Positions 8,432-11,785 of a stretch of 64,000 nt of DNA are shown piece by piece. The stretch lies in contig NZ_JAOZVR010000017.1 in NCBI RefSeq assembly GCF_025869515.1, positions 1-64,000 on the forward strand, in the 5' to 3' direction. A program made the translations under genes and the position numbers. Every line of letters starts with the position of its first letter. The stretch's first letter is position 1. Below the pieces are notes generated by a model that was given only the letters and a program-made list of their open reading frames with translations, was not told the DNA's origin and did no database searches. This DNA is from Ferrovibrio sp. (lineage in GTDB: Bacteria; Pseudomonadota; Alphaproteobacteria; Ferrovibrionales; Ferrovibrionaceae).

Positions 8432-9775
8432 CTAACCCTGTCTGGCGATGAATTCTTCCAGCCAGTGGATGTCATAGGCGCCGTTGACGAAATCGGGTTC
8501 GTTGATCAGCGCCAGATGCAGCGGGATGGTGGTCTCCAGGCCGCCGATCACATATTCCTCCAGCGAACGGCGCAGACGCATCAGGCATTCGTTGCGATTG
8601 GTGCCATGCACGATCAGCTTTCCGATCAGCGAGTCATAGTGCGGCGGAATCTGGTAGCCGGTATAGAGCGCGGAATCGACGCGCACGCCCAGCCCGCCAG
8701 GCACATGATAGTCGGTGACGCGGCCGGGCGAGGGCGCGAAGGTGCGCGGGTTCTCGGCGTTGATGCGGCATTCGATGGCGTGGCCGTTGAACTTGATGTC
8801 GTCCTGCGTGTAGCCGAGCGGCGCGCCGTTGGCGATGCGCAGCTGTTCGCGCACCAGGTCGAGGCCGGTGATCATCTCGGTGACCGGATGCTCCACCTGC
8901 AGGCGGGTATTCATCTCGATGAAGTAGAATTCGCCATTCTCGAACAGGAATTCGATGGTGCCGGCGCCGCGATAGTTCAGCTTGGAAATCGCCTTGGCGG
9001 CGATGTCGCCGATGACCTTGCGCTGGTCGTCGTTCAGCGCCGGCGAACGGGCTTCCTCGAGAACTTTCTGGTGGCGGCGCTGCAGCGAGCAGTCGCGTTC
9101 GCCCAGATGCACCGCATTGCCCTGGCCGTCGCCGAAGATCTGGATCTCGATATGGCGCGGGCGGGCAAGATACTTCTCGACATAGACCTGGTCGTTGCCG
9201 AAGGCATTGCGCGCCTCGGTGCGGGCCTGCTGCAGCGCCAGGCCGAATTCGGCCGGCGAACGCACCACCTTCATGCCGCGGCCGCCGCCGCCGGCGGTGG
9301 CCTTGATCAGCACGGGATAGCCCATCTCGGCGGCGAGCTTCAGGCCCTGCGCCTCGTCTTCCACCGCGCCCTTGGAGCCGGGCACGACCGGGATACCAAG
9401 CTGGCGCGCCGCTTCCTTGGCGGTGATCTTGTCGCCCATCAGCTTGATATGCTCGGAGGTCGGGCCGATGAAGGTGATGCCATGCGCCTCGACGATCTCG
9501 GCGAATTTGGCATTTTCCGACAGGAAGCCGTAACCGGGATGGATCGCATCGGCGCCGGTGATCTCGGCGGCTGAGATGATGGCGGGGATGTTGAGGTAGC
9601 TCTGGCTGGACGGCGGCGGGCCGATACACACCGACTCGTCGGCGATGCGCACATGCATGGCCTCGGCATCGGCGGTGGAATGCACCGCCACCGTGCGAAT
9701 GCCCATCTCGCGGCAGGCGCGGTGGATGCGGAGCGCGATCTCGCCGCGATTGGCGATCAGCACCTTGTCAAACAT
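8432..9775 (-). CDS. accC: Acetyl-CoA carboxylase, biotin carboxylase subunit
   Basis: Carboxylates the biotin carried on AccB using ATP and bicarbonate, the first half-reaction of fatty-acid synthesis. The 447-residue length is normal. Visible features: N-terminal [20 protein letters not shown], the ATP-grasp glycine loop [12 protein letters not shown] near 160-170, [21 protein letters not shown] and [14 protein letters not shown] with the catalytic Glu/Arg set. It lies 19 bp downstream of accB and upstream of aat. Confidence 0.97.
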
Positions 9776-9794: not shown

Positions 9795-10274
9795 TTACTC
9801 GATAATGATGAGCGGCTGGCCGAATTCGACCGGCTGCTGGTTCTCGATCAGGATACGCGCGACGCGGCCGCCCTTCGGCGCCGTGATCGGATTCATCGTC
9901 TTCATCGCCTCGACGATCAGCACGGTCTGGCCGGCATTGACGCTGTCGCCGACCTTGACGAAGGCGGCGGCGCCCGGCTCCGGCGCGGTATAGACGGTGC
10001 CCACCATCGGCGACTTCACGGCGCCGGGATGGCTGGCGTCATCGCCGCCCGCGGCGGGCGCGCCGGCGGCGGCCATGGCGGCTGCGGCAGCCGCGGCTGC
10101 GACCGGGGCCGCGGCATAGACCGGCGAACCGCCCTTGGTGACGCGGACTTTCAGCGGTCCTTCGCTCCACTCGATCTCGGTGAGGCCGGTTTCGTTCAGC
10201 AGGTCGGCGAGTTCGCGGATCATCTGCTGGTCGATGCGGCTGTCAGCCTTGGCTTTGTCCTTCGGCGCGGCCAT
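9795..10274 (-). CDS. accB: Acetyl-CoA carboxylase biotin carboxyl carrier protein
   Basis: A 159-residue carrier. An N-terminal helical domain ([27 protein letters not shown]) is joined by a long Ala/Pro linker (about residues 53-80) to the C-terminal biotinyl domain. The biotin-accepting lysine is K125 in EAMKTMN, a one-residue variant of the classic EAMKMMN. Works with AccC and with the AccA/AccD transferase, which is not in this window. Expected to be co-transcribed from an aroQ or accB promoter. Confidence 0.96.
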
Positions 10275-10314: not shown

Positions 10315-10818
10315 TCAGACGATATCGGCCAGCGCTTCGAGCGCCAGCACATACCCCTTCGGCCCGAAACCGCAGATCATCCCTTTCGCCGCCAGCGAAA
10401 CATAGGAGTGATGGCGGAAGTTTTCGCGCCGGTGGATATTCGACAGATGCACCTCGACGCAGGGCTTTTCGGCCGCGTTGAGGGCATCGAGCAGGGCGAC
10501 CGAGGTGTGGGTATAGGCACCGGCATTCAACACGATGCCGGCGGCCTTGCTCCGCGCCTCCTGGATCCAGGTGACCAGCTCGCCCTCGAGATTGCTCTGG
10601 CGGAAGGAGATGGCGAGGCCGAGCCGGCTGGCGGCGGCGGCGCAGAGCCGCTCCACATCGGCCAGCGTGTCGCGGCCGTAAATCTCGGGCTGGCGCAGGC
10701 CGAGCATGTTCAGGTTCGGGCCGTTCAGCACATAGATCAGCGGCTTGCCTTTCGCGGGGGCCGCTTTCGCCGCCGCCGGGCGCTTGCCGTTTGCTGCCGA
10801 TTTCAGTGCTTTCGCCAT
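10315..10818 (-). CDS. aroQ: Type II 3-dehydroquinate dehydratase
   Basis: Third step of the shikimate pathway: 3-dehydroquinate to 3-dehydroshikimate. The domain starts at [21 protein letters not shown] and includes the catalytic Tyr of that loop, [16 protein letters not shown], and the active-site histidine in [13 protein letters not shown]. The ATG at 10818 gives 167 residues with a 25-residue Ala/Lys-rich N-terminal extension; the reading frame continues further upstream but passes through the parS site and has no family similarity. accB follows 40 bp downstream. Confidence 0.93.
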
Positions 10819-10924
10819 GCGAATCCCAAAGCTGTCGCCGACCAGACCGCCTGCCGTACACCATCGGGGGAGGCCGGGCAACCCGTTGATCCGGCTGGGC
10901 GGAAAGCGCCGCGCGTTCACTGTA

Positions 10925-10940
10925 TGTTTCACGTGAAACA
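10925..10940. other. parS centromere site
   Basis: TGTTTCACGTGAAACA is a perfect 16-bp palindrome and an exact match to the conserved bacterial parS site bound by ParB. It lies in the 283-bp gap between aroQ and the metallo-hydrolase gene. parS sites cluster near the replication origin in most bacteria. No parA/parB genes are in the window, and I noticed no second exact copy. Confidence 0.9.
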
Positions 10941-11101: not shown

Positions 11102-11785
11102 ATGATGACTTCAGCCGCCCCGCAGCAGCCGATCCTGCATGCCGAAATCAACCCGGTGACGCCGTTCCAGCAGAACTGCTCGCTGATCTGGTGCCCCGAA
11201 ACCATGCGCGGCGCGCTGGTCGATGCCGGCGGCGAGCCTTCGAGGCTGCTGGCCGCCGTGCAGCGCCACGGCGTGACGCTGGAAAAGCTGCTGGTCACGC
11301 ATGGCCATCTCGACCATGCCGGCGCGGTGATGGAGATCGCGGAGAAGCTCGGCCTGCCCATCGAGGGGCCGCATGAGGATGACAAATTCTGGATCGACGG
11401 CATGCCGGCGGCGGCGCAGCAATATGGTTTTCCGCCGAGCCGCAGCTTCACGCCGACGCGCTGGCTGAAGGATGGCGACCGGGTGACGGTCGGCAATCTG
11501 GTGCTCGATGTCATCCACTGCCCGGGCCATACGCCGGGCCATGTGGTGTTCTATCACGCGCCCTCGAAAGCGGCGCTGGTCGGCGACGTGATCTTCCAGG
11601 GCTCGATCGGCCGCACGGATTTTCCCAAGGGCAACCATGCCGACCTGATCCATTCGATCCGCGACAAGCTGTTTCCGCTTGGCGACGATATCACCTTCGT
11701 GCCCGGCCACGGGCCGCTGTCGACGTTTGGGCAGGAGCGGGCGAGCAATCCCTTCGTGTCGGACCGGGCGGTGGGGATTGGTTAG
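11102..11785 (+). CDS. MBL-fold metallo-hydrolase (YcbL/glyoxalase II-like)
   Basis: A 227-residue cytosolic metallo-beta-lactamase-fold hydrolase. The metal-binding motif THGHLDHAG, a second ligand set in HCPGHTPGH, the bridging Asp in LVGDVIFQGSIGRTDFP, and a late VPGHGP are all present. Length and the GSIGRTDFP block fit the YcbL/type-II glyoxalase-like group, which acts on thioesters such as S-lactoylglutathione; the actual substrate is not shown. The start may be the ATG at 11102 or the one at 11105. The next gene begins immediately after its stop. Confidence 0.88.
   Translation: MMTSAAPQQPILHAEINPVTPFQQNCSLIWCPETMRGALVDAGGEPSRLLAAVQRHGVTLEKLLVTHGHLDHAGAVMEIAEKLGLPIEGPHEDDKFWIDGMPAAAQQYGFPPSRSFTPTRWLKDGDRVTVGNLVLDVIHCPGHTPGHVVFYHAPSKAALVGDVIFQGSIGRTDFPKGNHADLIHSIRDKLFPLGDDITFVPGHGPLSTFGQERASNPFVSDRAVGIG

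Follow-up and report, generated by a model that had tools for sequence, protein, structure and literature searches.

An exact parS site before aroQ in Ferrovibrio is most likely an auxiliary, terminus-side ParB loading site

ParB loads onto the chromosome at parS in the form of ParB-CTP clamps. The parS site is a 16-bp palindrome with a consensus printed as TGTTNCACGTGAAACA (PMC7022226), and its distance from the origin matters in the systems described. In Caulobacter crescentus, for example, the parS cluster is reported about 8 kb from ori (PMC5815017). According to the same study, extra parS clusters are tolerated if placed within ~500 kb and disfavoured at mid-arm positions, there is a limited zone no more than ~100 kb from ter, and SMC alone did not explain the mid-arm effect (PMC5815017). 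Pseudomonas aeruginosa is described as requiring parS within ~650 kb around oriC, and chromosome I of Vibrio cholerae is quoted in the same source as tolerating a 650-kb shift of parS (PMC5098823). Six dispersed sites of P. aeruginosa, more than one base off the perfect palindrome, reportedly could not take over from those near the origin (PMC4368675), which shows that a dispersed parS can be almost silent. Published accounts for Caulobacter, Pseudomonas and Bacillus present parS far from the origin as mostly disfavoured or harmful (PMC5815017, PMC5098823, PMC8357415). Scattering of parS is reported to be restricted to few lineages and to seem counterproductive for SMC collision avoidance, and the far parS of Bacillus subtilis, at +1058 kb, is reported as weak (PMC8357415). 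The parS of repABC plasmids, as presented in PMC9040568, belongs to a different system.

The window analyzed here is a 64-kb stretch (G000:C17:1-64000) of a Ferrovibrio draft assembly (G000; 126 contigs, 4.89 Mb). It contains the exact parS palindrome TGTTTCACGTGAAACA at 10925-10940, which matches the chromosomal consensus in full and is the sole match with up to three mismatches in the window. In 100 dinucleotide shuffles of the window the mean was 0.06 matches, and one match was reached in 6 of the 100. The whole genome has 10 places with up to three mismatches (two exact, three with one, two with two and three with three) against 5 for a reversed-pattern control; at one mismatch or fewer, the counts are 5 and 0. 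The shuffles, together with the reversed controls in this genome and across the genus, rule out a chance match and bear out the exact 16-bp parS reported in an earlier note on this DNA. The palindrome lies, as that note had it, between aroQ and a metallo-hydrolase gene. More specifically, it falls in the 283 bp that separate aroQ (10315-10818, minus strand), which codes for a 167-aa type II 3-dehydroquinate dehydratase (TIGR01088, 194.2 bits against a cut-off of 169.85), from a divergent gene for an MBL-fold metallo-hydrolase (11102-11785, plus strand; PF00753). The distance is 106 bp to the aroQ start and 161 bp to the hydrolase start. Downstream of aroQ on the minus strand are accB (9795-10274; biotin carboxyl carrier protein; TIGR00531, 129.7 bits, cut-off 115.2) and accC (8432-9775; biotin carboxylase; TIGR00514, 729.6 bits, cut-off 626.5), and the upstream placement relative to aroQ is likewise confirmed.

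The genome also encodes a chromosomal ParB with a matching DNA-reading stretch. The par locus is on another contig (C41), with the gene order mnmG-rsmG-parA-parB (parA was named from its sequence); the aroQ site is, as claimed, outside any par operon. Of the features that the earlier note suggested looking for, parAB and a cluster of parS copies are found on C41. The copies there have two mismatches just before mnmG, one mismatch inside the gene and an exact match just after it, and a fourth parS-like place beyond the mnmG cluster has three mismatches. The C41 ParB (197.7 bits against TIGR00180) is the one strong chromosomal ParB of the genome, next to two weak ParB-like proteins (58.4 and 50.6 bits). 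It aligns with Caulobacter ParB (6t1f/7bm8; E 3.7e-64), with the stretch GKSRSHVAN identical. No second ParB was found in the congener G005 at E up to 0.001. We also identified a second strong ParB (L226, 186.3 bits) on contig C152 of G004, which also bears copies of the same parS; this protein possibly reflects a second replicon or contamination (6% in G004).

Conservation at the locus was compared across the genus and family, where aroQ is present in all 18 genomes searched. A parS site precedes it in four of the ten genus genomes, exactly in G000, G001 and G002 and with one mismatch in G005, at 106, 139, 152 and 140 bp from the aroQ match, respectively. A 783-aa gene replaces the hydrolase on the far side of the site in G001 and G005. 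Pairwise identity among the four carriers is 15-16 of 16 positions at the site, values biased upward because the sites were picked by the parS motif, against 0.54-0.65 in the flanks. A motif-free test on the four-way alignment (118 gap-free 16-column stretches) returned at least 14 invariant columns in three blocks only: the parS site, a leader block around CGATGGTGTACGGCAGGCGGTCTG (10840-10869, minus strand) and the aroQ start. The parS site has been kept amid drifting DNA in these four species. The leader block, about 55 bp from parS on the aroQ side, is perhaps a promoter or leader of aroQ, as judged from the alignment; a scan for one promoter type found no sigma-70-like consensus match.

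The remaining genus genomes have aroQ and no parS beside it. No site within two mismatches was found at the aroQ locus of G003, G006 or G008, and none with one mismatch or fewer near that of G004, G007 or G009. In G008, the position aligned to the parS is occupied by a degenerate GGATCAGCTGAAACA. The absence of the site from six of ten genomes indicates that it is dispensable for the genus. In a tree of the SMC head and hinge, the four carriers form a group next to G008, with support values of 51, 75 and 82 (weak to modest). This pattern would follow from one gain of the site or from its loss in G008.

The earlier note had taken the site as a mark of an origin-proximal position. The position in the draft assembly rests on synteny with G005, which alone among the genus genomes used is assembled into one contig (4,264,634 bp, taken as circular). 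The window is largely collinear, in inverted orientation and with gaps, with 3.848-3.915 Mb of G005. The sign of the GC skew (sampled in 20 x 12 kb) and the strand of KOPS-type octamers both switch near ~3.43 Mb, and a dif-like site, single copy in six of eight genus genomes searched, is at 3,425,154. The parB gene of G005 (1,337,688) is 2.09 Mb from dif, or about half the circle, and the cumulative skew minimum falls in the 0.86-Mb sample. We dropped dnaA as an origin marker (2.52 Mb, mid-arm). The aroQ parS of G005 (3,907,185) is separated from dif by 482,031 bp and from parB by 1,695,137 bp. On the path from origin to dif it stands at 78% if parB is taken as the origin and at 72-75% if the skew minimum is, so the position is terminus-side whichever is used. 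The KOPS in the window, six on the plus strand and none on the minus strand, agree with a terminus-side position. Synteny, GC skew, KOPS and dif thus rule out the origin-proximal mark: parB is 1.70 Mb away from the syntenic copy and dif 0.48 Mb, whereas an origin centromere would be close to oriC/parAB. As the G005 copy has one mismatch, the best-mapped copy may also be the weakest.

The terminus region was also inspected in other genus genomes. An exact parS is located 49 bp from the dif-like site of G002 (L205:3935-4020 = G002:C22:80934-81019). In five other genus genomes, nothing resembling parS was found within 300 bp of the dif-like site; the best candidates there have 5-7 mismatches.

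The aroQ site is one of many in the genus. Sites with one mismatch or fewer number 5 in G000 and G002, 6 in G001 and G009, 12 in G003 and G004, 2 in G005, 20 in G006, 7 in G007 and 3 in G008, against a reversed control of 0 in all ten; eight family members outside the genus have 1-2 each. Once the par loci and the second-ParB contig of G004 are set aside, 47 such sites are remote and come from nine of the ten genomes (none in G008 and only one in G005). Despite a coding fraction of 0.86, 44 of the 47 were called intergenic and 3 inside genes (p 6e-34, which overstates independence because orthologous copies were counted separately). The calls come from our own codon-score gene finder, which mis-called a gene on the hydrolase side of the window parS; one of its intergenic calls, L236, probably lies in coding sequence, given its homology to L203 and L208. 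Several dispersed loci are shared between species: before an ArsR-family regulator (G003, G000, G006), at an alpha/beta-hydrolase gene (G001, G002, G000), at the end of a NUDIX gene (G003, G009, G006) and at the end of a Peptidase_M24 gene (G007, G003, G004, G009). At the Peptidase_M24 locus the sites are identical (16/16) versus 0.47-0.73 in the flanks. Two pairs from close relatives differ in this respect: L224/L233 (site 14/16, flanks 0.96) has no extra conservation and L219/L234 (15/16, flanks 0.90) hardly any. The labels 'BASS' (no family match) and 'ppk' (the gene is Peptidase_M24) for two site neighbours were dropped. In a class-wide sample, an exact parS occurs in 282 of 385 genomes, and five or more copies in 16 of them (read by eye).

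Other features of the dispersed sites deserve mention. In G001, three exact parS (L198, L200, L201 on C19, C40 and C102) share one repeated neighbourhood, all three lying no more than 1.6 kb from the end of a contig and next to genes that look phage-like by eye; a prophage carrying parS is possible. Spread by mobile elements was rejected for the set, as no genome contributes more than one locus to any other cluster, the par group aside. In L213/L225, L220/L231 and L214/L228, homology between close relatives ends near parS on one side, as if at breakpoints or insertions. Some of the remote and par-locus sites occur as pairs or triplets spaced 33-47 bp apart, in L221, L232, L238, L239, L212 and L248 (e.g., 34 bp in G003 and G009). 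Outside the genus, the 1.8-Mb alphaproteobacterium G247 has 78 exact parS (e.g., L289-L294), some of them in short arrays, for example six at 37-bp spacing (C5:85888-86088). The single-contig genome G228 (2.75 Mb) has 18 exact copies, 8 clustered at 1.812-1.817 Mb and 10 elsewhere.

We interpret the 16-mer, with a probability of about 0.6, as a functional parS that loads the chromosomal ParB and belongs to a scattered genus set, terminus-proximal and outside the origin centromere. The window site is, on sequence grounds, most likely an auxiliary ParB loading site. On the basis of established ParB biochemistry, an exact parS in a genome with its own ParB is likely to load ParB-CTP clamps. Clamps loaded at the aroQ parS would slide a short way into the flanks and form a small secondary ParB domain, where SMC-ScpAB or other partners of ParB may be recruited. 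ParB occupancy, SMC recruitment and a benefit to the cell are predictions for this site, and SMC loading and a role near the terminus are likewise presumed. Of the earlier interpretation, the reading as a real parS holds, supported by a parS-type chromosomal ParB and by the occurrence of the site in four species, whereas the origin-proximal mark does not.

Alternatively, ParB bound 106 bp before the aroQ start could lower or tune transcription of aroQ-accB-accC and couple the shikimate pathway and the synthesis of fatty acids to the amount of ParB. We consider this regulatory role possible but unlikely. It has a reported precedent in P. aeruginosa, where ParB represses promoters adjacent to the intergenic parS3 and parS4 (PMC5521831). 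The position before aroQ is kept even where the far neighbour differs (G001 and G005), and the conserved leader block between parS and aroQ also fits such a role. However, aroQ lacks a parS nearby (one mismatch or fewer) in six of the ten genus genomes, and no sigma-70-like promoter emerged from the one-type scan. Furthermore, other dispersed sites (L207, L213, L223/L230, L224/L233, L238 and L242) are between genes called as convergent by our own finder, so promoter control is not a general rule.

It is somewhat less probable that the site is a neutral or slowly decaying relic of parS copies that arise or transfer and are tolerated between genes without function. Its patchy presence across the genus, the mismatch in G005 and the degenerate counterpart in G008 would suit a relic, as would the two close pairs at other loci, which change at about the flank rate or above. 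This reading is at odds with the conservation of parS as one of only three blocks in a drifting region shared by four carriers, and with the absence of reversed-control matches. Least plausible is a network resembling nucleoid occlusion, in which scattered ParB would carry a division inhibitor, perhaps with MipZ, as the ParB relative Noc does in Bacillus: scattered intergenic sites and matches of Noc structures to the C41 ParB speak for it, but the par-locus ParB (the protein scanned) scores 220.1 bits against the Noc cut-off of 315 (TIGR04285), and Noc sites avoid the terminus, whereas G002 has its exact parS beside the dif-like site.

The auxiliary-loading interpretation raises the question of SMC, which scores above cut-off in all ten genus genomes; loss of SMC is thus ruled out as the reason why distal parS are tolerated. 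Compared to the family member G010, the SMC arms of the genus are longer by 108 (G000, G005), 126 (G006, G008), 144 (G001, G002, G003, G009) or 180 residues (G004, G007). The gain is equal on the N- and C-terminal strands in all ten (L277-L286) and is exactly 6, 7, 8 or 10 times 18 residues. Among ten insert stretches from five species, a lag of 18 is strongest in nine and a lag of 36 in one. Read by parsimony, the SMC tree has at least four arm-length changes within the genus. An SMC match was obtained in 33 of 43 genomes compared, and 21 with a one-piece match, aligned to G010, differ from it by -4 to +14 residues on either strand. Six SMCs with split matches (frames 1154-1218) and three cut by contig ends were kept outside this alignment. 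The arms of the parS-rich G228 and G247 differ from G010 by -8/-7 and -15/-36, respectively.

Long SMCs also occur outside the genus, in G011 (+87/+88, frame 1340), G043 (+184/+172, frame 1523) and G050 (+113/+150, frame 1426), with two parS at one mismatch or fewer, two exact and no exact parS, respectively. These genomes rule out long arms as a sufficient cause of scattering and, because they have long arms without it, we claim no causal link. Nor do we claim a correlation between arm length and parS number within the genus, given a Spearman coefficient of 0.55 with p 0.10, n = 10 and kinship ignored. Outside the genus, 7 of 14 genomes with five or more exact parS (6 of 11 plus G219 of 3; G022, G027, G030, G219, G299, G313 and G335) have no strong SMC match, versus 1 of 25 ordinary class genomes; this contrast is a lead only, because we picked the 25 by hand and most of the 14 are smaller genomes.

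Natural prokaryotic SMC arm lengths are reported to have three peaks (238, 341 and 515), and 163 and 423 may be further, minor modes (PMC5344682). If G010 is near the 341 mode, as we assume, the genus arms would be ~449-521, partly between modes. In B. subtilis, Smc with modified arms is reported to fold the chromosome better with one strong parS left (PMC8357415). Our literature search found no paper joining tandem repeats in Smc coiled-coil arms, Alphaproteobacteria and parS. A bolder and rather doubtful extension is a chromosome-wide network of predicted ParB (and so SMC) loading sites with co-adapted SMC arms, in which lengthening in paired 18-residue steps would let complexes from scattered sites meet or pass without jamming. 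If true, the genus would be a natural counter-example both to the notion of parS only near the origin and to SMC arm lengths favoured in ~100-residue steps. The paired lengthening bears in any case on the question of what arm length does.

The locus can be placed among the known systems as follows. It shares with the ParABS system of C. crescentus the same kind of 16-bp palindrome and an identical GKSRSHVAN stretch in ParB; in contrast to the ori-side cluster of that species, the G005 copy is far from parB (1.70 Mb) and nearer to dif (482 kb). P. aeruginosa likewise has single parS sites along the chromosome beside an origin cluster, but its dispersed sites are imperfect, whereas many in the present genus are exact. 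Sites are also spread over part of the chromosome in B. subtilis and other Bacilli. Apart from its weak far site, the parS of B. subtilis are on the origin side, unlike the exact parS beside the dif-like site of G002. The Noc/NBS system of Bacillus also combines a ParB-family protein with many single sites, though of a sequence different from parS; here, the par-locus ParB falls below the Noc cut-off and the terminus is not avoided. Exact, shared, terminus-side sites let one ask how cells cope with distal ParB loading. Dispersed parS are already known elsewhere; exact terminus-side sites common to several species are what appears to be new in this genus.
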